Shown piece after piece: positions 840-31,410 of a DNA stretch of 64,000 bases. The position numbers and the translations under genes were made by a program. The DNA lies in the NCBI GenBank assembly GCA_025716855.1, contig JAIXMQ010000025.1:62001-126000 (forward strand). The letters are read 5' to 3'. This DNA is from Pilaira anomala (lineage: Eukaryota > Mucoromycota > Mucoromycetes > Mucorales > Mucoraceae). Numbering within the stretch: position 1 is the stretch's first letter; the number at the start of each line of letters is the position of its first letter. The notes under the pieces were generated by a model. It had not been told where the DNA came from and did no database searches. It saw only the letters and a program-made list of their open reading frames with translations.

Positions 840-1984
840 TAAAGTTTGTAACTTCGATAGTATATCCGAATTTTACTCAAAGAAAAATTTGATTTTGAAT
901 TGCATTGGTAGATCGTATCTATCTTAATATACGTTTTTAATAGATGCTCTATGAGCATATAGAGACTCAGTGGGCCGGAACCACTAAATGTCATCCACCC
1001 ACTTTCCTATAGTTGTAAATAATGAGACACTTTTCAATAATACAACACGAAGCTCCGTGATGCATTTGACATCATAATTAAACCACTATAGAGGTGATCA
1101 TTTGATTTTATCTTGGTTATCTCTACGCGATATTGACTTTGAAACTCAAGCATTCAATAGTAATATAAACAAAAAAAATTTTTTTTTTTTCTTTTTAAAA
1201 TACTAACGTAAAGTAAATAAATTTATTAATCGAAAACAAAATAGTATGATGTCTACATATTTTTTTTTAAGCTTACGTGCATATTCAAATTGGGAACATT
1301 AGGGTCTGGACACCATTTAATATATTTCTGTTTGTGAAACAGAAGCAAAATAGACAGTTATGTGTGTATACATACCACATATATATTAATTCATGTACAA
1401 AATTCTTTAATAAAAAGGTTGCCATGTTCAGAGAGTACGGGTCAAGACGGTGTTATAAAATATAGCGATAGGGAGGGGGTAGTGTAGTAATATTCAATAT
1501 TGTATATAAGCATAAGATAGTGATGGTATTTTTTATAGTTATCTTTAGTAAACAAGAAAGGAGCTAAACCAAAAAACAAATTCATATCCTTTATTTATTT
1601 TTTTTTAGTTACATGTTATTGGTTCGCTTTTTTCTTTATACATAGAATAAAGTTAAGTAAACATTGTCTCTCAGAGTTCTTGAGAAAAAAAAAATTTTTT
1701 TTTATTGACATGTGTTACAGAACCACAATATTCTAACCAATTCATGCATTTTTTTTATGTAATACATCAACTTCATATGCTATATTTTTTTTTACTTATA
1801 CATTGAATAAAGCTAAATATACATTGCCTCTTAGAGTTCTTGATAAGAAAAAAATTTTTTTTTGTTGATATGTGTTACAAAACATCCATGTTCTAGCCGC
1901 CTCATGGATTTTATTATAAATACATTGTTTTTTTTTTCATGTATTTTTTTTTTTCTCTTTTCCTCATACATAACAGCTTTTAAA
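646..1984. other. Intergenic AT-rich stretch, no gene seen
   Basis: About 1.3 kb of AT-rich sequence with several poly-A/poly-T runs (a long A run at about 805-837). There are two related short segments at about 1640-1740 and 1795-1895, with the shared words taaagtta/taaagcta, acattg and agagttcttga. No convincing exon was found. The short open frames here are low-complexity. Confidence 0.5.
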
Positions 1985-2678
1985 ATGGTTATCTTACCAA
2001 TAATTTGCTATTTAATCACTGCGGTTACATTTATGTTTCGTAAGTACTATACGTGTTAATGTAATATTTTTGCTTATATTAATTTTTTTTTATTTATATG
2101 TAGCTCCCCTCGCCCCACTCTTCCAAGAGTATAAGGACACTTATTGTGTTCCCTTAATCTCCTCTGTTCCTGCCTGGGACGTAAAAAAAGCTTCTTCTTC
2201 TCCTGCTGAAGTTTGTAAATCTGCCACCATCATGGCAGATTTGTTCCAAAAAGCATCCCCCGTGGATGTTTGTTATCCTATCACGGAAAAAGGTCTCGTT
2301 GTTGTCTCTCCTCTTGCTCTCCCTGTGTGTTCTGCTGTGGTTGGCGGTTGTAAACCCGATTTTACATCGGGTTTGTTTAGATTACAAGTTTGTCCCTCCC
2401 TTCCCTTTCCTTCTTTCCCGGTCCCGTCTCCTTCTGAAACCCTTTCTTCTCTTTTTTCGCCTGTTGGGTACTATCCCTTCAACCCTTTCTTCTCTCTCTG
2501 GACCGGCCCTAAATCTTTTACTTCAACAGTAAAAGATTTGTTTCAAGAAATGATTGTCATGTTAAGAAGAAACCCTTTCATGACAATCATTGTCACAATT
2601 GAAGCCGTTTACCTCCTTCGAAGGAGTAAACAAGGATGGCGAAGAAAAGACCATCCTTGTTCTCTTTGTTCAAAATAA
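1985..2678 (+). CDS. Small membrane/secreted protein gene whose second exon is a string of hairpins
   Basis: Two exons, 1985-2039 and 2104-2678, joined by a 64-nt intron with a strong donor (gtaagt) and a pyrimidine-rich acceptor ending in tag. Together they give 209 codons in phase. Exon 1 encodes a hydrophobic N-terminus (MVILPIICYLITAVTFMF) that could be a signal peptide or anchor. Exon 2 is Pro/Ser/Val-rich. Near the C-terminus a second hydrophobic patch (NPFMTIIVTIEAVYLL) is followed by a basic tail and a CSLC motif. The exon is much less AT-rich than its flanks and contains about ten inverted repeats, several perfect (see findings). I do not recognise the family. Because the hairpins could themselves be the functional unit, whether the protein is made is uncertain. 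Confidence 0.5.
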
Positions 2679-2835
2679 ACTATATATTTTGTCATAAATT
2701 TTTTTTTTTCTCATTTGTGTATAAATAAGTCTTTCTAATTTTTTTAATGCTTTGAACTAATATTAGTCAAGAATAATCTTTTTTAAATAACAGTTTCATA
2801 TCCTGTTTTATTTTTTAAAATAAGTATGGCTAAAG

Positions 2836-3080
2836 CTTTTTCGAACTTACACCTAAAGCAATAAAAGATCTTAACGGATTTGAAAGTGAAATCGAACTTA
2901 TGAAATTAGGAGCCATTTATTATTTGCAGGAGATTCGGATTCACACAAGTAGCCACTAGCACCATCGTTAATAAAATGTGATCTACAGTCCAAAATACTG
3001 TTGAAAGAGTGGCTAAAACTAATACTTTAGTAAAGAGAACGAGTTCTGGAAGTGTGGATAATTCTGTAGTTTTTTTTTTT
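2836..3080 (+). pseudogene. Possible decayed exon(s)
   Basis: Two adjacent frames on the plus strand look coding but do not join. One (2836-2959) reads LTPKAIKDLNGFESEIELMK and onward to a TAG. The other (about 2935-3080) reads VATSTIVNKM, an in-frame TGA, then VQNTVERVAKTNTLVKRTSS. An acceptor-like ag lies before each. Either this is a gene with an unresolved intron, or the remains of one broken by a frame change and a stop. No homology is recognised. Confidence 0.25.
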
Positions 3081-3185: not shown

Positions 3186-3680
3186 CTAATAGAACAACCG
3201 AGAATATGAAGTTTTGGATAAGACAAGAACAGCTTCCATCAGAAAAAGTACAATACGGATACATGAAGCAAGCAAAAAGAATCTTGCAGCATTTTCAATA
3301 TTATAATCGCTAGGTGATCCAAGTCGATACCCATATAAAGTAACTTCAGTACCTTTAACATCATTCATGAGAGACTGAACATCACTTGAAAACATATCCA
3401 GTTGAAGAACGACATATTCACCTGCATCTTTCAAGGCTTCTTTTATTTCTGGCATATCTAACCCACTGACAGAATTCTTATAATCTTTTAAGCCATTACT
3501 GACCCGATCCTTGACTAAATTATTTAATAATTCATACGTTGTAGGTTCTTTTGATGGTCTAAAAAAATCTTCAAGCACTTGAGTAAATGTCAGTTTACCA
3601 ATAGCTTCATTATTTTCTAAACATTGTGCTGTGCCCAAAAAGAGTAGCACTGTAATAAAGAAAGCTTTAAGAAACAACAT
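3186..3680 (-). CDS. Secreted or membrane-anchored hypothetical protein, 164 aa
   Basis: A single-exon frame with a clear signal peptide (MLFLKAFFITVLLFLGTAQC). The mature region is charged and mostly helical (residues about 22-125, including LTFTQVLEDFF and VVLQLDMFSSDVQSLMNDV). A hydrophobic segment near the C-terminus (about 132-152, FFLLASCIRIVLFLMEAVL) is followed by a short tail. The layout fits a type I membrane protein or, less well, a GPI-anchored protein. A poly-A run directly upstream of the ATG on the plus strand is a pyrimidine tract on the coding strand, as for most genes here. The family is not recognised. It sits among other small surface-type genes at 2-7.5 kb. Confidence 0.6.
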   Translation of the reverse strand: MLFLKAFFITVLLFLGTAQCLENNEAIGKLTFTQVLEDFFRPSKEPTTYELLNNLVKDRVSNGLKDYKNSVSGLDMPEIKEALKDAGEYVVLQLDMFSSDVQSLMNDVKGTEVTLYGYRLGSPSDYNIENAARFFLLASCIRIVLFLMEAVLVLSKTSYSRLFY

Positions 3681-19194: not shown

Positions 19195-19680
19195 CTAAAG
19201 CTCCCCCTTTTTTTTTTTCTTGCAATGATTCTCTAGTATCTGTGTTTAAAGATTTGGACCTTCTTTTTTCGGTGAATACAATGTAATAAAAGCCTCGGTG
19301 AAAAAGGAAATGGTTACTTAGCAGAGAAGTAAGCAGACATGAAAGTTATTATCTTTCTAATAAGTTTTTACAAAAAAAAAAAAAAAAAGAAATTAAATAC
19401 GTTCTTAGAGTGAATGCCTCACAGGGCATAAGGGATTTTCTTTATACCTATAAACTCTATATATCCTATTTAATGGCAAATAATAGCTTCTATGTATAGC
19501 TTTCGTGTAGTCCAACTTTTTTATAAATGATAAAAATCACCTTTATTTCCTTAATACTGCAAACTTCATCATCTACCCACTCCCCCCCCCCCCAAGTCGT
19601 CCCGTTTTTTTGTTTTTAAATAAGGGCAGCAAAGACCCTACACTACGCTATGTATTTATTGACCTGAACTACGTTTTTTT
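19195..19680 (+). repeat. Dispersed repeat block W, copy 1
   Basis: This block recurs in direct orientation at about 23788-24245. Shared words include gatttggaccttctttttt, gaatgcctcacagggcataa, catcatctacccact and gggcagc...gaccctacactacgc. A C12 tract is present only in this copy. No coding frame is conserved. Confidence 0.75.
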
Positions 19681-21389
19681 TTTTGGAATAAAAGAGCTAA
19701 CTTGCGTTTAATTGAAAATGCAAGAAAAGAAAAAGGGTGATATTAATACACAAAGGATTAAAGGATTAGATTACATGATATTTTTTTTTTTTATAAATAA
19801 ACAAGTTCTACTTACATTAAATGCATCTTGTTGGGGAGAGATCAGTGATCTAACTGTTCGGGAAGGTTTATCGTTATTGTTACTGTTATTGCTGTTGAAC
19901 AGCGATAGACTTAACAAAGCCGATTGTTAGGGAAGAGCAAATGCCATGAAGTTTGTTTTTTTTTGTTGTAGCGAAAAAAAACTTTGAGCCAATCAAATCA
20001 TCGGAAAAGGGGGGAAAAGTATACTTTTAGGCAAAAATCAGCAGGTCCCGACCTTTGATTTTTTTCGAAAATTAGAAATATGTATACATCTTTACATTAA
20101 AAAGGTTTTAAAGCTTAGCTTTTTAACAATACATGTAGAATTTGACGCTCTTTTTAATGATGCAAAATACAAAGTAAAATAGTAACAAATATTTATAGGT
20201 ATTATGAAAAAACGATATACAGTTTTTGTTAGGGCAAGTATATTTTCTACATAAAACATAATAATTCTAAATCAATAGAAAGATGCGCCTTTAAATTACG
20301 CATCGATTGTATATTATATAGTAAAATAGAATAGGTGAAATGAAAGCCTTTAATTTGAAAAGAAAGAAATTTGGACCCAAATCTCAATTTTTAGGTCCAA
20401 AAACAGGGAAAAAAACCAAATCAGGATACAGACATATTTTGTTAGACAATGTTATATTCCAAAGATGTAGAATTTAAAAACTAAGATTTCCATGCATTTA
20501 GATTTATTATCTTGTATATAAAAAATATACATGCCCTAATAGAATCTGTGCTTTCTCGCAATGACTATTAAACTTTATAATTACACTACTTTGATTTTTA
20601 CATCATTCGAAAGAGCGTCAAATTCTACCTTAGACATCAATAAAAAGCTAAACTTTAAAACCATTTAAATACAAAGATATATCTCCATTTCTAATTTTTA
20701 TTTTTTTTTAAGCTGTGAAAAAAATTCCATTTTTTAGAAAAATTTGCTAGTCCCCCCCTATGGATTTTTTCAACATTCAGAAATGTGGATATATCTTGGT
20801 ATCGAAAAGGTTTTAAAGCTTGGCTTTTTAACAATATATGTAGAATTTGACGCTCTTTTTAATGATGTAAGAATAAAAGTAAAATAATTACAAATATTAA
20901 TGGTTATTGTGATAAAACGGTTTACAGTTTTTGTTAGGGCAAGAATATTTTCTGTTTCCAATAATATAACTCAAATTATATAGAAAGATGCACCTTCAAA
21001 TTCTGCACTTTCTGTGTATCATATTGTTTAATGAAATAGTTGATTTAGAGGGACATTACTTTGACAAGAAGGTATTTTTTGTCAAAATTTTGATTTCTGG
21101 GACTGAAAAACGAGGTGTATGTAGAACATGCTACATGCACTCTCCATTTGTAGTGCATGTAAGGAAAACAGTTTTTGTTAGAAAAAGTATATTTTTTACA
21201 TATAAAAAAGTACATCTTTATATACAGTCATCTGCCCATATAAATTTAGGATTTTCTGGATATAGTATTGTATAATAAAATAGTTAATATTGAAGGACTT
21301 TACTTTGACATGAAAGGTTTTCTGGGCTTAAATATGTGGTGTGCGTAGTTTATACGATGCGCGCTTATTTTTGCCTAAAAATATATATT
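19681..21389 (+). repeat. Composite repeat element, copy A (with upstream block U)
   Basis: Upstream block U (19690-19950, gcgtttaattgaaaatgcaa and a (GTTATT)-like tract) precedes a left terminus at about 19955 (gttgtagcgaaaaaaa, tttgagccaatcaaatc, then aggcaaaaatcagcaggtcc). The body is built from a module of about 200-230 bp that occurs plus (about 20050-20330), minus (about 20460-20700) and plus again (about 20760-21090). Recurrent words are gtagaatttgacgctcttt and ttttgttagggcaagtatat. No transposase, reverse transcriptase or other enzyme frame is present, so it is non-autonomous. Confidence 0.75.
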
Positions 21390-21795
21390 TTTTCCCCCTT
21401 TTCCGATGATTTGATTGGCTCAAAGTTTTTTTCGCTACAACAAAAAAATCATACCTATAATACCTCGTTTTTCATTATCAAAAATACTAATTAAGGCCAG
21501 TAAACACAGGTAGTGTAGCGCAGGGCTTTACTGTTGTCATAGAGTGGTAGTATCAAAAGGTCTGTTCCTTTAAAAAAAAAATTTCACCATAAATTAAAAG
21601 TGAAAGAGGCAGATTTAATTATATCAAGAATTATATTACCTTGGCATATGGACCACCAAAAGTTTTAATGCAATTGTATTTTAGTTAAACTGATATGGAT
21701 GCTTTATTTTTACTTAAGCAAAATGGCTTGTCCTCAAGGATAAAGAAAATTAACAGTTATAGCAATGTACATAACTAGTGAATGATATTGAAAGA
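21390..21795 (-). repeat. Inverted left terminus plus block V, minus orientation
   Basis: From about 21368 to 21449 the sequence is the reverse complement of the copy A left terminus (19955-20037), nearly identical over about 80 bp. From 21450 to 21795 it is the reverse complement of block V at 29112-29617, but lacks the 174-bp insertion found there. The right end of copy A and the start of V are therefore joined here. Confidence 0.7.
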
Positions 21796-21824
21796 TTTAT
21801 ATGTATAATATGTATATATATACA

Positions 21825-23787
21825 TATATATTCCAAATAAACTCGAGAAACACTCTGAAATAAAATGGAAAAATGTGGTTCATTGTACACTTTTATTAGG
21901 AATTAATGGCAACTAACTATATTGGAGGAAAATTCCGTTCAAAGACAAAACAAATGATTTATGATTATACACAGAATAAAAAAATGAAAACTAGTAACAA
22001 AAATAGTTTGAATAAAAGAACCAACTTGCGTTTAATTGAAAATACAAGAAAAAAAAAAGAGTGATATTAATACACAAAGGATTAGATTAACAATTTTTTA
22101 TAAATAAACAAGTTATGCTGTAGTATAGCCTAAACACTCCCTGTCGGGGGAAGAAATCAGTGATAACTGTTCGGGAAGGCTTATTGTTATTGTTATTGTT
22201 ACTGCTACTGCTGTTGAACAGCAATAGACTTAACAGAGCCAATTGTTAGGGAAGAGCGGATGTCATGAGAGCTAAAGCCTTGTAAACTTTCAATCAATCC
22301 CAAAAAAAAAAAGAAAAAAAAAAGGTTTTTTTCTTTGTTACAGCGAAAAAAAAATAAGCCAATCAAATCCTTGGAAAAGGGAGAAAAAGTGTATTTTTAG
22401 GCAAAAATCAGCAGGTCCCGACCTTTGGAATTTTTCAAGATTCAGAAATATCCATACATCTATACATTAAAAAGGTTTTAAAGCTTAGCTTTTTAAGGAT
22501 ATATGTAGAATTCGACGCTCTTTTTAATGATGCAAAAAGCAAAGTAAAATGGTAACAAATATTTATAGGTATTATGAAAAAACGCTATACAGTTTTTGTT
22601 AGGGCAAGTATATTTTTTATATCTAAAATAATAATTCTAAATCAATAGAAAGATGCGCCTTCAAATTCTGCATCGATTGTATATTATATAGTAAAATAGA
22701 ATAGGTGAAATGAAAGCCTTTAATTTGAAAAGAAAGAAATTTGGACCCAAATCTCAGTTTTTAGGTCCAAAAACAGGAAAAAAACCAAATCAGGATACAG
22801 ACATATTTTGTTAGACAATGTTATATTCCAAATATGTAGAATTTAAAGACTAAGATTTCTATGCATTTAGATTTATTATCTTGTATATAGAAAATATACA
22901 TGCCCTAATAGAATCTGTTCTTTCTCGCAATGACTATTAAACTTTATAATTATGTTACTTTGATTTTTACATCATTCGAAAGAGCGTCAAATTCTACCTT
23001 AGACATCAATAAAAAGATAAACTTTAAAACCATTTAAATACAAAGATATATCTCCATTTCTAATTTTTATTTTTTTTTAAGCTGTGAAAAAAATTCCATT
23101 TTTTAGAAAAATTTGCTAGTCCCCCCCTATGGATTTTTTCAAAAATCAGAAAGATGTATATATCTTTACATTAAAATTTTTTTAAAGCTTGGATTTTTAA
23201 CAATATATGTAGAATTTTGCGCTCTTTCTAATGATGTAAAAATCAAAACTAAATAATTATAATAATTTATGTTTATTGTCAGAAAACGAAATAAAGTTTT
23301 TATTAGGGCAAGTATATTTTCTGTTTCTAATGATATAAATTGAATTATTTAGAAAGATGCGCCTTTAAATTCTACACTTTCTATATATCATATTGTTTAA
23401 TAAAATAGTTGATTTAGAGGAACCTTACTTTGACAAGAAGGTATTTTTTGTCAAAATTTTGATTTCTGGGACCGAAAAACGAGGTGTATGTAGACCATGC
23501 TACATGCACTCTCCATTTGTAGTGCATGTAAGGAAAACAGTTTTTGTTAGAAAAAGTATATTTTTTACATATAAAAAAATACATATTTATATACAATCAT
23601 CTGCCCATATAAATTTAGAATTTTCCGGATATAGTATTGTATAATAGAATAGTTAATATTGAAGGACTTTACTTTGACAAGAAAGGTTTCCTGGGCTTAA
23701 ATATGTGGTGTGTGTAGATACTCAAGTAGTGTGTGTAGTTTATATGAGGCGCGCTTATTAGTCACTCTAAATTAGCTAAACACAGCA
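21825..23787 (+). repeat. Composite repeat element, copy B (with block U)
   Basis: Block U (21830-22320, starting near ataaactcgagaaacactct) leads to a left terminus at about 22325 and the same plus/minus/plus module body, ending at about 23787 (gcgcgcttattagtcactc, ttagctaaacacagc). It is a direct copy of 26850-28735 with scattered substitutions. Block W copy 2 follows immediately. Confidence 0.75.
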
Positions 23788-24245
23788 ATGATTCTATCCG
23801 TGTTTAAAGATTTGGACCTTCTTTTTTCGGTGAATACAATGTATAAAAGCCTCAGTGAAAAAGGAAAACAATAAAGGAAATGGTACTTAACAGAGAAGTG
23901 AGCAAACATGAACAATGATGAAAAAGGCTTATTATCTTTCTAATAAGTTTTACAAAAAAAAGAAATTAAATAAGTTCTTAGAGTGAATGCCTCACAGGGC
24001 ATAAGGGATTTGATTTTCTTTATACATACCTAAACTCTATATATCCTATTTATCGGCAAATAATAGTCTCTATATAGCTTTCGTGCAGTCCAACTTTTTT
24101 ATAAATGATAAAAATCACCTTGATTTCCTTAATACTGCAAATTTCATCATCTACCCACTCTCTCAAGTCGCCCAGTTTTTTGTTTTTAATTAAGGGCAGC
24201 AGCGACCCTACACTACGCTATGTATTTATTGACCTGAACTACTGT
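23788..24245 (+). repeat. Dispersed repeat block W, copy 2
   Basis: Direct repeat of 19195-19680, slightly shorter, ending at the shared gacctgaactac. No coding frame. Confidence 0.72.
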
Positions 24246-24255
24246 ATTTCCGCCG

Positions 24256-24319
24256 TCAATTGGTCACTTATTAAGCTTCAATTGATCACTTGTTTAAGCC
24301 TCAATTGGTCGCTTTTTGG
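24256..24319 (+). repeat. Three-unit degenerate tandem repeat, 22-23 bp
   Basis: Units start at 24256, 24278 and 24301 with tcaattggtcacttatt, tcaattgatcacttgttt and tcaattggtcgcttttt. The sequence on both sides is unique within the window. Confidence 0.7.
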
Positions 24320-25378
24320 TCATCCTGTACTCGTACAATAATTAAGTTGATGGGTCAGCGCAGTTTAATTGTAAGAGTTATTCCAAAAGATTTGAATTGT
24401 AAAGATACTCATATGTATGTCTATCAAAAATAAGTGAGAAAAGAGGTGTTAAATGAAGAGCACCTTCAATCGACGGCCTTAATTATATAATTAAATAATC
24501 CTACATTTGGGCGGTTTTAAAAGGTCATTGATGAAATGATAGTTGGTGAATAAAATAAGTACTACAAGCTGTGGGTCCCTAATTGAATGAAGGTCGGCTT
24601 TTAGCCCCTCTGCTTCGCTTCGTGTAAAAGCTACCGGAATTCCGGGGGGTATCCACAGCTTTTAGGTAGTAATGATACAATAATCGATAAAAATAATAAT
24701 AGTAGAGGTAAATTGACGGCTTTCGACCTACGAAAGTGGAGATAAGAAACAAAAGTGCACCCTTTGTTGATCCAGTGCAAAACCGAAGTCGGGGAAAAGA
24801 GTAGTAAAAAAAAAGGTAGTAAAATCACGGATGACTTTTGTCCGGATTTATAAAAAGTATAACCAGGCGCATCGTCACGTGAATAAGGTTTTTTATAACT
24901 TTTTGCATGAAATACACCATTACATCAATTTTTTTTCACATGGCATACAGGCAGGTTTTTTTTCTCATACGTCAGACAAACAAGGGGGGGTTTTTTTTTT
25001 TTTCATTATAAATCATCTTTTTTTTATTTTGTTCTTTTCTTTCACTTTCTTCTTTTTACATATATTCCAAAATGAATCTTCCTTACCGCTCCATTTTTAA
25101 TCTCTTCTTTTGCCACACTCCTTATCTAGAGAAGAGATTGTTCCAAGAAAAAAAGACCTGTATAAAACTACGTATTGTTATCAACAGTAAGTCTAATAAT
25201 TTTATCAAAAAACAAATGATTCATTTTGTCTAATAAATCTCAAATAGAAAATGATCCTTTTTTCTTTTTTGTCCAAATTACTAGTAAAAAAAGAACAAGT
25301 TACCTGGTTTTTTGTTAAAAAAAACAAGAATTATACCAGTCTTTTCTTTAAAAAAAACTGTAATTAAAGCGGTAACAG
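24320..25378. other. Unique AT-rich spacer in the repeat island
   Basis: No convincing gene. It contains an inverted repeat aagctgtgg (24566-24574) / ccacagctt (24653-24661), about 96 bp end to end, enclosing cggcttttagc...gtaaaagctaccg. This may be a hairpin or an old element end. The region just before 25378 may hold undetected 5' exons of the next gene. Confidence 0.4.
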
Positions 25379-26530
25379 AATAGCAAAGAAGACTGGCTTG
25401 TAAAAATCAAATTATTCCGAAACTACAACAGCGAAGATGATTTAATCGCCAGAAGAGATTTGATGGCTTCCATTTTCAATATATTGTAAGTTACATTAAC
25501 ATTCAAGTGTTCGTTATATAAGAAAATAACCATTTCTATAGCTCTGATCTTTACGATGGTGCATCAGAAACCTTATCGTCATCAGAAAGCTGCCTAAGAT
25601 ACTACATAATTGACCCATTGTTACAGGCATGCAACAAGTACCTAAAGGACCGTAACAACAATGTAACTTTTTATCCCGGAGAAATTGAACTAAAAGCTAT
25701 GACAGTTCAATTAAAAGACCAAGGGATCACAGATAAACGTCTTAAATACAATGCAGACGGAACAATTCTGTTCAACAGAATCTCCACTGAAATATTACTA
25801 TCTGAAGTATCTTCAGCATTTGCTGAAAATAACAAGGCTAAAACTTCTTTTGACCATTACAAAGCTATGTTTGGCCTCCTGATGATGCTAAAAAAGATTG
25901 CTAGAAAGTTCAAATATGCCAGCTTTAATACTTTCAAAGGATTGAAGGTTCACTTTATCCACACACATAGTAAGTAAAATTGACAAGGTCATTACATGTT
26001 TCCTAAAAATCCTACGTAAATAGACCAAGCAAAACGCCATTGGACAATGTTCACACCTTTCCTTGGTTTGTTTTTAATGAACAAAGAACAAAAGGTGGAC
26101 ATAATGGAAAATTTCAAAGAAAAATCAGAAGGTACCTTACCCGCTCTATTTAAGGCCGTTCGATATAAGGCCGCAATTCTCTGCAAAATTTGAAACTTTT
26201 TTCAGCCTTAAATATAGCGGGCACTGTATTATACCTTTTATGAACTTCTCTATTACTTTGGGGTATGTATACACCTTTATCTTTTATTGGAAAGGGCGTT
26301 GAAGAAAACGACTAACTTGAAAATCACACCAGGTATCGTTGGAGGAGACTTTGCATACCATTCCTATGCTGAGTAGAGAGCACGAACAAGTGTTGAGGGA
26401 GGGTAGTACCAATGAGAACACCTCTCCTGCTTCTCTTCTTGACTTGGTCAATCCTATCCTTGTTCGTTTAAATGAGAACAAGCACAAGGATGAAGCGGCT
26501 GAAGATGGCCCACAAAGCCCCAGTTCTTAA
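25379..26530 (+). pseudogene. Unidentified gene interrupted by a MITE-like insertion
   Basis: Exons 25379-25485, 25542-25969 and 26024-26132 connect in phase. They encode EDWLVKIKLFRNYNSEDDLI, DLYDGASETLSSSESCLRYY, KYNADGTILFNRISTEILLS, EVSSAF and FKGLKVHFIHTH, then HWTMFTPFLGLFLMNKEQKV. At 26135 a 92-bp element flanked by TA interrupts the frame; read through it, the frame stops within about 22 codons. Beyond the insert, coding-like sequence resumes, including a C-terminal stretch REHEQVLREGSTNENTSPAS to a stop at 26528-26530, but not in one clean frame. The ADG...EILLSEVSS spacing is only loosely like PD-(D/E)XK folds, so I do not assign a function. It is probably a lineage-specific gene family. 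Confidence 0.5.
26135..26226. mobile_element. 92-bp TA-flanked MITE-like insertion inside a gene
   Basis: Imperfect terminal inverted repeats: the left end is ccttacccgctctatttaag, the right end reads agcgggcactg, whose complement is cagtgcccgct. Both flanks are TA (26133-26134 and 26227-26228), as expected for Tc1/mariner-pogo type integration. It is the short relative of the 174-bp element at 29254. It carries ggcc(t)ta-type subterminal motifs and encodes nothing. Confidence 0.72.
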
Positions 26531-26840
26531 ATGTGTATATGAACCACGTATACCGACTATTACTGATACGCTTATGTAATATAAAGTGCAATAAATTTCA
26601 GTGTTCATACCGATATAAAAAGGATTTAACAATGTTGCTAAAATTCATACCATGTGCTTTTGTAAAATAGGTTTTTCACACTTATTAGCTTTTCATTTTG
26701 AAGACATAAAAAGGAGGATTGTACGATATGTTTTGAGATATTTAGCATGTATGTTATGAGTTCGTCAATTTTATTTTTAACGGGCATTGGATAAAATGAA
26801 CCTTCAAGTGTTTGAATGAATTGATTTATATGTATACGTA
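26531..26840. other. Spacer between broken gene and repeat copy C
   Basis: About 310 bp, AT-rich, unique within the window. An (AT)n stretch at about 26838-26855 marks the start of repeat block U. No gene seen. Confidence 0.5.
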
Positions 26841-26844
26841 TATA

Positions 26845-28735
26845 TATATATATATTTTACAAATAAACTCGAGAAACACTCTGAAATAAAATGGCAAAAT
26901 GTGATTCATTGTACACTTTTATTAGGAATTAATGGCAACTAACTATATTGGAGGAAAATTCCGTTCAAAGACAAAAAACAAATGATTTATGATTATATAC
27001 TCAGAATAAAAATACAGAATAAAAAAAATGAAAACTAGTAACAAAAATAGTTTGAATAAAAGAACTAACTTGTGTTTAATTGAAAATACAAGAAAAGAAA
27101 AATGGTGATATTAATACACAAAGGATTAGATTAACAATTTTTTTTATAAATAAACAAGTTATACTTACACTCTAAATGCACCTTGTTGGGGGAGATCTGT
27201 GATAACTGTTCGGGAAGGTTTATTGTTACTGTTATTGTTATTGTTATTGCTGTTGAACAGCGATAGACTTGACAGAGCCAACTACTAGGGAAGAGCAAAT
27301 GTCATGAGAGCTAAAGCCTTGTAAACTTTCAATTAATCCCAAAAAAAAAGGGTTTTTTTCTTTGTTACATCGAAAAAACATTGAGCCAATCATATCATCG
27401 GAAATAGGGGGAAAAGTATATTTTTAGGCAAAAATCAGCAGGTCCCGACCTTTGGATTTTTTCAAGATTCAGAAATATCCATACATCTTTATATTAAAAA
27501 GGTTTTAAAGCTTGGCTTTTTAAGGATATATGTAGAATTTGATGCTCTTTTTAATGATGCAAAAAGCAAAGTAAAATGGTAACAAATATTTATAGGTATT
27601 ATGAAAAAACGCTATACAGTTTTTGTTAGGGCAAGTATATTTTCTACATAAAACATAATAATTCTAAATCAATAGAAAGATGCGCCTTCAAATTCTGCAT
27701 TGATTGTATATTATATTGTATAATATAATAGGTGAAATAAAAGACTTTAATTTGAAAAGAAAGAAATTTGGACCCAAATCTCAATTTTTAGGTCCAAAAA
27801 CAGGAAAAAAACCAAATCAGGATACAGACGTATTTTGTTAGGCAATGTTATATTCCAAAGATGTAGAACTTAAAAACTAAGATTTCTGCTCATTTAGATT
27901 TATTATCTTGTATATAAAAAATATACATGTCCTAATAGAAGCTGTTCTTTCTCGCAATGGCTATTAAACTTTATAAATATGTTACTTTGATTTTTACATC
28001 ATTCGAAAGAGCGTCAAATTCTACCTTAGACATCAATAAAAAGCTAAACTTTAAAACCATTTAAATACAAAGATATATCTCCATTTCTAATTTTTATTTT
28101 TTTTTAAGCTGTGAAAAAAATTCCATTTTTTAGAAAAATTTGCTAGTCCCCCCCTATGGATTTTTTCAAAATTCAGAAATGTAGATATATCTTGGTATCG
28201 AAAAGGTTTTAAAGCTTGGCTTTCTAACAATATATGTAGAATTTGACGCTTTTTTCAATGATGTAAAAATCAAAACTAAATAATTATAATAATTTATGTT
28301 TATTGTGAGAAAACAGAATAAAGTTTTTGTTAGGGCAAGTATATTTTCTGCTTCCAATAATACAAATAAAATCATATAGAAAGATGCGCCTTCAAATTCT
28401 GCACTTTCTGTATATCATATTGTTTATTGAAATAGCTGATTTAGAGGGACGTTACTTTGACAAGAAGGTATTTTTTGTCAAAATTTTGATTTCTGGGACC
28501 GAAAAACGAGGTGTATGTAGACCATGCTACATGCACTCTCCATTTGTAGTGCATGTAAGGAAAACAGTTTTTGTTAGAAAAAGTATATTTTTTACATATT
28601 AAAAAATATATCTTTATATACAATCATCTGCCCATATAAATTTAGAATTTTCTGGATATAGTACTGTATAATAAAATAGTTAATATTGAAGGACTTTACT
28701 TTGACATAAAAGATTTCCAGGGCTTAAATTTGGAG
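26845..28735 (+). repeat. Composite repeat element, copy C (with block U)
   Basis: A direct copy of 21825-23700: block U, left terminus at about 27350 (tttgttacatcgaaaa), plus/minus/plus modules. It ends near 28735 and lacks the ttagctaaacacagc end found in copies B and D. Confidence 0.75.
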
Positions 28736-28789
28736 TGTGTGTAGTCCATTATTGGGGTGTTTATAGAGTATGAACTTTTTTACCATTCT

Positions 28790-29110
28790 TTTTTTTTTTT
28801 TTTGTGAGAATGACCATACTTGAGATCTTAATACATACTTTTCGATTTTAAATCAATTATTTTAATATACAATATGATATACAGTCGATACAGAATTTAA
28901 AGACACATTTTACCATATATTTGGATTTATAAGTTTAGATATGAAAAATATACTTGCCCTAATAAAAACCGTAATTTCACTTTCTCACAATCATCATTAA
29001 TATTTATAATTACTCTACTTTGATTTTTACACCATTCAATAGAGTTTCAAATTCTATATTAGAAACTATTCAATAGTTTTGCTCTAAAAGTTTTATAATC
29101 CCAAGATTCA
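28790..29110 (-). repeat. Diverged isolated module, minus orientation
   Basis: One copy of the roughly 230-bp module in reverse orientation, more diverged than those inside copies A-D. Recognisable words are aaaatatacttgccctaat, tactctactttgatttttac and gagtttcaaattctatatta. Confidence 0.6.
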
Positions 29111-29111
29111 C

Positions 29112-29617
29112 TAGTTATGCACATTGCTATTATTGTTAATTTTCTTTATCCTTGAGGACATGCCATTTTGCTTAAGCGGAAATAAAGTATCCATATCAGT
29201 TTAAGTAACTATACAATTGCATTAAAACTTTTGGTGGTCAATATGCCAAGGTACAGTACCCGCTATATATAAGGCTGTAAAAAATTTCAGACTTTTGCGG
29301 CCTTAAATCGTGTCATGGCCTTATTTATGCCTTGAAAAAAAGTTAAAATAGGCAAAATATCCAGGAAATTGCGGCCTTAAATCGGAAATGGCCTTAAATC
29401 GAACGGCCTTAAATAGAGCGGGCACGGTAATATAATTCTTGATATAGTTAAATCTGACTCTTTCACTTTTAATTTATGGTGAAAAAAAAAATTTTAAAGG
29501 AAGAGACCTTTTGATATTACCATTCTATTACGACAGTAAATTCCTAAGCTACAATAACTTTGTTTACTGGCCTTAAGCAGTCTTTTTGATAAAGAAAAAC
29601 GAGGTATTGTAGACATG
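29112..29617 (+). repeat. Repeat block V, plus orientation, carrying a MITE insertion
   Basis: Reverse complement of 21450-21795 across nearly its whole length (ctttatccttgaggaca, ccaaaagttttaatgcaat on the other strand). A 174-bp insertion at 29254-29427 is present here and absent from the other copy. Repeat copy D follows directly. Confidence 0.7.
29254..29427. mobile_element. 174-bp TA-flanked MITE (Tc1/mariner-pogo-like ends)
   Basis: The ends are cagtacccgctatatataag on the left and, complemented, ccgtgcccgctctatttaag on the right. They are flanked by TA at 29252-29253 and 29428-29429. The subterminal motif ggccttaaat recurs about five times. The uninserted sequence exists in the window at about 21640-21660 (complement ccaaggtaatataattc), with a single TA. 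This defines the insertion boundaries and the 2-bp target duplication. No coding capacity; a transposase would have to act in trans. Confidence 0.82.
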
Positions 29618-29618
29618 A

Positions 29619-31075
29619 TTTTTTTGTTGTAGCGAAAAACAATTTGAGCCAATCGAATCATCGGAAAAGGGAGGGAAAAAATATATTTTTAGGTAAAAAT
29701 CAGCAGGTCCCGACCTTTGGATTTTTTCGAAAATTAGAAATATGTATACATCTTTACATTAAAAAGGTTTTAAAGCTTGGCTTTTTAAGGATATATGTAG
29801 AATTTGACGCTCTTTTCAATGATGCAAAAAGCAAAGTAAAATGGTAACAAATATTTATAGGTATTATGAAAAAACGCTATACAGTTTTTGTTAGGGCAAG
29901 TATATTTTCTACATAAAACATAATAATTCTAAATCAATAGAAAGATGCGCCTTCAAATTCTGCATTGATTGTATATTATATTGTATAATAGAATAGGTGA
30001 AATAAAAGCCTTTAATTTGAAAAGAAAGAAATTTGGACCCAAATCTCAATTTTTAGGTCCAAAAACAGGAAAAAAACCAAATCAGGATACAGACGTATTT
30101 TGTTAGGCAATGTTATATTCCAAAGATGTAGAATTTAAAAACTAAGATTTCTATGCATTTAGATTTATTATCTTGTATATAAAAAATATACATGTCCTAA
30201 TAGAAGCTGTGCTTTCTCGCAATGACTATTAAACTTTATAATTATGTTACTTTGATTTTTACACCATTCGAAAGAGCGTCAAATTTTACCTTAGACATCA
30301 ATAAAAAGCTAAACTTTAAAACCATTTAAATACAAAGATCTATCTCCATTTCTAATTTTTATTTTTTTTTAAGCTGTGAAAAAAATTCCATTTTTTAGAA
30401 AAATTTGCTAGTCCCCCCCTATGGATTTTTTCAAAATTCAGAAATGTAGATATATCTTGGTATCGAAAAGGTTTTAAAGCTTGGCTTTTTAACAATATAT
30501 GTAGAATTTGACGCTCTTTTCAATGATGTAAAAATCAAAACTAAATAATTATAATAATTTATGTTTATTGTGAGAAAACAAAATAAAGTTTTTGTTAGGG
30601 CAAGTATATTTTCTGCTTCCAATAATACAAATCAAATTATATAGAAAGATGCACCTTCAAATTCTGCACTTTCTGTATAGCATATTGTTTAATGAAATAG
30701 TTGATTTAGAGGGACGTTACTTTGACAAGAAGGTATTTTTTGTCAAAATTTTGATTTCTGGGACCGAAAAACGAGGTGTATGTAGACCATGCTACATGCA
30801 CTCTCCATTTGTAGTGCATGTAAGGAAAACAGTTTTTGTTAGAGAAAGTATATTTTTTACATATAAAAAAATATATCTTTGTATGCAATCATCTGCCCAT
30901 CAAAATTTGGAATTTTCTGGATATAGCATTGTATAATAAAATAGTTAATATTGAAGGACTTTACTTTGACAAGAAAGGTTTTCTGGGCTTAAATATGTAG
31001 TGTGTGTAGATACTAAAGTAGTGTGTGTAGTTTATATGAGGCGCGCTTATTAGTCACTCTACATTAGCTAAACAC
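29619..31075 (+). repeat. Composite repeat element, copy D
   Basis: Left terminus at about 29619 (gttgtagcgaaaaac, aggtaaaaatcagcaggtcc), plus/minus/plus module body, and a right end at about 31075 shared with copy B (gcgcgcttattagtcactc, ttagctaaacacagc). Upstream of D lies block V, whereas B and C have block U. Confidence 0.75.
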
Positions 31076-31084
31076 AGCCTAAAT

Positions 31085-31410
31085 TTTAAGCCCTAGAAAT
31101 CTTTCATGTCAAAGTAAAGTCTCTCTAAATCAACTATTTCATTAATTAATATGATATACAGATAGTTCAGAATTTAAAGGCTCATCTTTCTATGTGATTT
31201 GATTTATATTACTAGAACCAGAAAATATACTTGCCGTAACAAAAGCTGTAATTCAACTTTCTTACAATAGACATTAATCTTTATAATTACTTTACTTTGA
31301 TTTTTACATCATTCGAAATAGTGTCAAATTCTATATTAGAAACAGTTAAAAAGCTAAACTTTTACACCTTTGTAATGCCAAGATATATCAACATTTATGA
31401 TTTTTTTATG
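31085..31410 (-). repeat. Isolated module, minus orientation
   Basis: A diverged reverse-orientation module next to copy D (aaaatatacttgccgtaac, tactttgatttttacatcat, gtgtcaaattctatatta). It closes the right side of the repeat island. Confidence 0.6.

Follow-up and report, generated by a model that had tools for sequence, protein, structure and literature searches.

A Pilaira anomala gene family carries rows of hairpins inside a coding exon that are probably maintained in the sense mRNA

The window analyzed here, a 64,000-nucleotide stretch of the genome of Pilaira anomala (Mucorales), contains a two-exon gene at positions 1985-2678 of its plus strand, and a row of hairpins lies inside the protein-coding second exon. 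The gene is organized as follows:

1985..2039, plus strand: exon 1, with the start codon and a hydrophobic signal-like peptide (MVILPIICYLITAVTFMF); short hydrophobic N-termini are similar across the family
2040..2103, plus strand: phase-1 intron of 64 nt, GTAAGT...TAG; GTAAGT precedes exon 2 in family members
2104..2678, plus strand: exon 2, with the rest of the 209-residue protein, a TAA stop at 2676-2678 and the hairpin array, supported by the open frame and the family alignment

The exon 1 product is a putative signal peptide, judged by its hydrophobicity. The protein has this hydrophobic N-terminus and a second hydrophobic stretch near a basic, cysteine-bearing C-terminus. An earlier note on this DNA had described one long open exon, downstream of a good intron and less AT-rich than its flanks. 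This description holds: the same two-exon splice in six paralogues (C170a, C57, C207a, C170c, C193 and C199) gives exactly six database proteins (P0002-P0007), and the G+C content is 0.42 in the spliced coding sequence versus 0.32 in the window. On the minus strand, positions 3186-3680 hold a short ORF, hydrophobic at its N-terminus and in a C-terminal stretch, and by eye unrelated to the hairpin gene family. The DNA at 2820-3060, 3′ of the window copy, resembles that 3′ of another copy, C15 (L002 2305-3270), and the DNA downstream of C15 leads into an ORF which by eye is transposase-like.

The ten inverted repeats listed in the earlier note are all present where it had placed them, five of them with perfect stems of 9-13 bp (H2, H3, H4, H5 and H7 below), but those at 2117-2130 and 2463-2483 are weaker than claimed:

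2117..2130, plus strand: inverted repeat with a 2-nt loop which folds as 5 bp; mean pair probability 0.05 in the whole-exon ensemble
2132..2156, plus strand: hairpin at the H1 position, bulged here, with a 6-nt gap in this copy; pair probability 0.64
2217..2242, plus strand: H2, perfect 10-bp stem, 6-nt loop, followed by GTT; probability 0.97
2251..2271, plus strand: H2b, 8-bp stem including one G.U pair, 5-nt loop, followed by GTT
2352..2374, plus strand: H3, perfect 9-bp stem, 5-nt loop, followed by GTT
2463..2483, plus strand: weak bulged hairpin of 4 pairs
2511..2539, plus strand: H4, perfect 12-bp stem, 5-nt loop TCAAC, followed by GTT
2549..2591, plus strand: H5, perfect 13-bp stem, 17-nt loop
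2607..2631, plus strand: hairpin with a 14-bp palindrome, an alternative to H7 (3-nt overlap); probability 0.92
2629..2661, plus strand: H7, perfect 11-bp stem; probability 0.02 in the whole-exon fold

In the whole-exon ensemble, the mean pair probability of seven of the ten exceeds 0.9. The low value for H7 is explained by its competition with the overlapping hairpin at 2607-2631. The H1 place, bulged in this copy, is occupied by perfect 8-11 bp stems in many paralogues.

The number of stems is above random chance: the exon has five of at least 9 bp (loop 3-20 nt), versus means of 0.07 in dinucleotide, 0.24 in synonymous-codon and 0.04 in codon-order shuffles, and none of the 300 shuffles of each type reached five. 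As a background we used 103,150 bp, comprising the rest of the window and 40 kb from four other contigs, with stem arms required to contain at least two G/C and three letters. This background had 10 stems of at least 9 bp, and none of its 185 blocks of 552 bp had more than one. Folded as RNA, the exon reaches -155.2 kcal/mol; shuffled versions average -115.3 (z -6.7), and none of 100 is as low. The antisense strand folds nearly as well (z -6.1). The earlier assertion that the stems are far beyond chance is thus borne out, both by the fold-energy control proposed with it and by the shuffled codons, whose equal pairing would have spoken against a selected or inserted array and which do not match the observed pairing.

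At least 27 loci make up the family to which this gene belongs. Searches of the 34.25-Mb, 225-contig genome at the DNA and protein level returned 25 of them, and C143 and C159 were added from weak and pattern matches; the count is a lower bound. Eighteen loci have an intact exon 2, defined as at least 170 codons, and nine are broken or truncated in this reading (C148, C182, C2d, C217, C150b, C207c, C10b, C143 and C159); the codon alignment leaves out the seven shorter of 25 family exons. Searched with the single sequence, the protein database returned one relative, and with the alignment 12 (E up to 10; the candidates share short exact words). All 12 listed are hypothetical proteins of P. anomala, and the window copy itself is absent from the listed matches. 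The six besides P0002-P0007 deviate from our two-exon readings, with different introns or ends: the models taken to be C182, C2d and C143 splice round apparent frameshifts. The P0001 and P0009 models omit the H4 region. Searches returned no Pfam family for two members (E up to 1), no Rfam covariance-model match at E up to 1 in window positions 1800-3000, and 67 pattern matches in viral contigs, none of them confirmed by tblastn. An AlphaFold model of P0002 made with 8 sequences was uninformative (mean pLDDT 41, pTM 0.19). A search of the open-licence literature, mostly of result listings, found no account of the family or of such hairpin arrays in Mucorales. The family has so far been found in P. 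anomala alone, and it probably encodes a fast-changing, signal-peptide-like, membrane-anchored protein.

Several copies have features of their own. The C148 copy (L003, about 1-1440) has no exon 1 in place, its homology beginning at the GTAAGT donor. Immediately upstream of it sits an antisense transposase-like ORF, which by eye we take to be Tc1/mariner-like. Two family copies with identical exon sequence lie in inverted orientation about 2 kb apart (G000:C2:557877-560816), and C207 likewise contains an inverted pair. C159 (L074 694-716, reverse strand) is a decayed copy with stops which retains a perfect 9-bp H3 stem. C217 (L006, about 1620) is truncated, its homology ceasing where the H2 loop ends, which is position 127 in the C15 exon. 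This suggested hairpin-guided deletion, which we rejected: the four other broken copies compared break at no consistent hairpin point.

Paralogues with about 40% amino-acid identity retain hairpins at homologous places: H1, H2, H2b, Hx, H3 and H4 are common stem positions, along with others near the 3′ end. Comparison of these paralogues, in place of the orthologues suggested in the earlier note, largely favors maintenance of the stems, with the exception that H3 is lacking in 4 of the 18 intact members. The 3′-end stems vary (11 bp in the window copy, 13 bp in C150a and 8 bp in C199), and the 3′ arm of H5 pairs with different 5′ stretches depending on the subfamily. Members have about 3-8 stem-loops, depending on the member and the threshold, and the longest uninterrupted stem outside an AT repeat is 15 bp. 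When each of 25 family exons was compared with 500 of its synonymous shuffles, the stem count was reached by no shuffle in 10 exons and by 1-5 in seven; the excess is weak in C193, C181, C2a and C2b (13-34 of 500), and four fragments are stemless. The minimum free energy of the spliced coding sequence has a z of -3.4 to -8.8 versus synonymous shuffles in all 12 members computed. All 18 control ORFs (first 600 nt) fall between -2.3 and +1.9, with at most one stem each. Folding in the family exceeds codon-preserving chance, as for a conserved structural RNA element within coding sequence, and the stems exceed codon-level chance in most intact members and sit at homologous places. Among nine close pairs of copies, 28 of 773 stem sites differ, versus 252 of 4390 sites elsewhere, a comparison limited by the branches common to several pairs and by the choice of stems for their pairing.

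Base pairing in these helices is kept by changes on both sides. The codon alignment for the tree test comprised 17 sequences, the 18 intact exons less C2b, a duplicate of C2a that was also dropped from the covariation scan, the tree simulation, the G.U event count and the off-stem rates. We observed 17 compensatory pairs, compared with a mean of 1.07 and a maximum of 7 in 100 simulations which redistributed the inferred substitutions along the tree while preserving residue and codon position. H3 contributes six pairs, H1 five and H4 three, and the remaining three are in unnamed helices. Two or more compensatory pairs occur in four helices (simulated mean 0.26, maximum 2), while six helices, the total observed, also occurred in simulation (maximum 6). 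Compensatory base changes are thus above the phylogenetic null.

The individual helices illustrate this. In H3, 63 of 63 cells are paired in 7 distinct rows and both sides have changed in 6 of 9 pairs, compared with 0-1 pairs when the partner is slid as a control. H1 occurs in the variants GAGTAC/GTACTC, GGTTGC/GCAACC and AGTTAC/GTAACT. In H2, GCCA/TGGC is compensated to GTCA/TGAC in the C199 type, and the C2 copies have GTCA/TGGC. An A-U pair of H5 in the window copy is G-C in C15 and C148, by way of two amino-acid changes (M/V and M/T). Amino acids co-vary as pairing demands, S with D and P with G: for H3 this holds in all 14 intact members that possess the stem, and for H4 in 16 of 18, with mismatches in C199 and C2c. 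A generic all-pairs covariation scan, which with 17 sequences has little power, ranked an H1 pair first (E about 0.02) and gave an H4 pair E of about 0.1; two pairs outside the proposed helices had scores of the same strength. One alignment, A4, was rejected as covariation evidence: it combines two hairpin positions, H1 and H2b, and its high covariation partly reflects the difference between them, so we relied on A5 (H3 only) and the tree test. Another, A3, was set aside for misaligned stems. Model R1, built from A4, matched at E <0.05 in the window just H2b, its source hairpin, followed by three matches at E 0.09-3.3.

We wondered whether the imperfect pairs distinguish selection on RNA from events in DNA, as G.U should be better tolerated than A.C under selection on the sense RNA, and not so if one DNA arm is copied onto the other. 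Counted over eight helices, after removal of 4 rows with gaps, the distinct rows contain 409 Watson-Crick, 32 G.U, 12 A.C and 28 other cells, and 33 of the 50 rows have at least one non-Watson-Crick pair. Parsimony on the tree gives about 17 single-step losses to G.U versus 8.5 to A.C, or about 25 events. Measured against the G.U share of about 0.41 expected from off-stem transition rates, this excess has p 0.005-0.025, and against one half p 0.05-0.15. The excess modestly favors the sense RNA, and not decisively: the events are few, they are counted by parsimony, and the antisense strand also folds well.

The hairpins also have a common edge. H1, H2, H2b, Hx, H3, H4 of the window type and the C150a tail stem open with AA or AAA and close with TT or TTT, and GTT or GT comes next. 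These stem edges, TTT-GTT (UUU-GUU in RNA), fall in three codon phases. The edge sequence is lacking in H4 of the other subfamily, H5, H6A and the tail stems of the window copy and C199. Linkers between stems are pyrimidine-rich: C+U is 60-66% in 15 members, and 40-53% in eight control ORFs taken whole. When just fourfold sites are considered, the C+U ranges overlap (0.69-0.81 in the linkers, 0.42-0.77 in the controls), and the bias may therefore stem from the amino acids.

Could the stems be a product of DNA metabolism? Replication template switching or hairpin repair could copy arm onto arm in quasi-palindromes, and perfect stems would then persist without an RNA function. We consider this unlikely, and it is the most serious of the alternatives: it fits the perfect stems, the both-arm changes that alter amino acids (in H5 of C144 compared with C15) and the good folding of both strands. 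It also has a close precedent in the coding palindromes of nematomorph mitochondrial genes, for which conversion of arms has been proposed (PMC6649704). These are the nearest published phenomenon we found, and they share with the Pilaira stems perfect inverted repeats in coding sequence, two coding arms and a tolerated conflict between protein and stem. The nematomorph palindromes lie in conserved mitochondrial enzymes, reach 284 bp, and arise and disappear, and imperfect ones are not in excess (PMC6649704). The Pilaira family is instead a nuclear, spliced multigene family with stems of mostly 8-15 bp at homologous places, a G.U excess and a common edge. Its stems are not simply perfect or absent: two-thirds of the rows counted above are imperfect, positions are conserved, and outright absence is seen for H3 in the four members noted. 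Imperfect stems this common, G.U in excess of A.C and stem places that stay constant over deep divergence all count against conversion, and the common TTT-GTT edge is not expected from it. As the 18 control ORFs and the 103-kb background show no such excess of stems, the process would moreover have to favor this family. Template-switch conversion, one of the explanations in the earlier note, is therefore unlikely as the sole cause given the G.U excess, the many imperfect stems and their positional conservation, and stands as a rival.

Less probable still is that the hairpins are a source or substrate of RNA interference, with Dicer cutting them or with the hairpins marking the mRNA for a non-canonical pathway. 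Mucorales do have a non-canonical R3B2/RdRP pathway, and R3B2 is described as binding single- and double-stranded RNA and as specifically cutting single-stranded RNA, two nucleotides downstream of uracil (PMC11943222, PMC4395119). The Pilaira family is multicopy, and several of its stems are followed by GUU. Direct targets of this pathway in Mucor lusitanicus carry CAG repeats thought to form hairpins (PMC11943222, PMC4395119), and NCRIP/R3B2 targets thus resemble our family in being Mucorales transcripts with hairpin-forming sequence, there proposed as recognition marks (PMC11943222). Those targets are CAG repeats mostly in transposons (PMC11943222), whereas the Pilaira stems are non-repeated, compensated and part of an orphan gene family. 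A casual look at the window copy noticed no CAG-repeat run. Mucor Dicer products are described as predominantly 23-24 nt (PMC4395119), and perfect stems of at most 15 bp are short for duplexes of that length. The anatomy hence lends no support to the dsRNA source of small RNAs suggested earlier, and keeping a self-destruction mark under selection would require a reason.

Repeated, frame-keeping insertion of palindromic mini-elements, also raised in the earlier note, would explain why several hairpins of one gene have AAA...TTTGTT ends in common, but is very improbable: the stem interiors differ between the hairpins of one gene, and three pattern searches of the genome found stems of at least 9 bp at family loci only, with no near-identical copies at unrelated loci. 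One of these, with TAAAYCY-N(6-20)-RGRTTTGTT, returned 35 matches versus 9 for the reversed pattern. Twenty-two are at family loci with stems of 9-12 bp (two reach 10 bp only with G.U), and the other 13 have stems of at most 8 bp, a length reached at C1:45318 and C174:81221. Elsewhere in the window, at 19200-31400, blocks of about 1.4-1.9 kb occur in several copies with 87-94% identity, and within them the hairpin TACATGCACT...AGTGCATGTA is found at 21132, 23501, 28528 and 30793. Finally, that amino-acid motifs merely happen to have palindromic DNA is hardly credible, even with K...DLF-like motifs that recur and members that share ancestry: the synonymous shuffles refute it for the window copy, the codon-order shuffles also fall short, and the edge motif occurs in three codon phases.

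We favor the explanation that exon 2 carries two messages, the protein and a series of selected stem-loops in the sense mRNA which would form a binding platform for a candidate factor, and give it a probability of roughly 0.6. It draws on one genome, its paralogues and parsimony on few events, and some gene models are uncertain. Matched base changes hold several hairpins paired while the protein diverges, which suggests that the message may have a job besides coding. The structured RNA envisaged in the earlier note is thereby supported, through homologous stems, compensatory changes in paralogues and folding above synonymous shuffles. Selection would act on the RNA stem-loops, separated by pyrimidine-rich linkers. 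The recurrent, frame-independent layout of AAA-stem ... UUU-GUU could present the stem base and its 3′ flank to a stem-loop-binding factor, and the resemblance of several stems, down to a shared base and 3′ flank, suggests a multivalent platform. Several sites per mRNA may then allow multivalent binding and, with it, coordinated localization, translation or decay of the family's mRNAs. Candidate readers are the R3B2/RdRP branch of Mucorales RNAi or an RNA-binding protein of the secretory route.

Structured elements within coding regions have precedents, typically one or a few to a gene, and the best-studied cases are viral. The zipcodes of ASH1 mRNA are stem-loop localization elements within coding sequence which are read by She2/She3, and like the Pilaira array they place several stem-loops, a possible multivalent platform, in one fungal coding sequence. 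The Pilaira messages differ in having more stems each and in forming a whole paralogue family, and we do not imply that the reader resembles She2. The byp elements of Magnusiomyces mitochondria are likewise hairpins inside coding sequence, but they are skipped by the ribosome, whereas the Pilaira stems stay in the open frame. Vigilin (HDLBP) is described as binding the CU-rich coding sequence of mRNAs targeted to the ER (PMC9117268), and the Pilaira mRNAs share with such targets a signal-peptide-like product and pyrimidine-rich linkers. What HDLBP recognizes, in human cells, are linear CU motifs (PMC9117268), unlike the stem-loops seen here.

A bolder version of the two-message explanation, which we offer tentatively, is that, of the two products, the hairpin array is the better conserved and sets constraints on the protein: pairs of amino acids would then co-vary because their codons base-pair, and the family would carry a multivalent RNA code in lineage-specific membrane proteins, perhaps with a reader from Mucorales-specific RNA silencing or RNA transport. 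For P. anomala, the analysis describes a nuclear family of at least 27 loci which maintains a series of stems as its protein drops to about 40% identity, and in which base pairing appears to drive part of the amino-acid covariation. This also advises caution, as covariation between amino acids can arise from RNA pairing and not from protein contact. If confirmed, the family would be a natural set of paralogues in which to measure the tug-of-war between RNA structure and protein, would allow RNA selection to be tested against DNA arm conversion, and may provide a lead to an RNA reader in early-diverging fungi.
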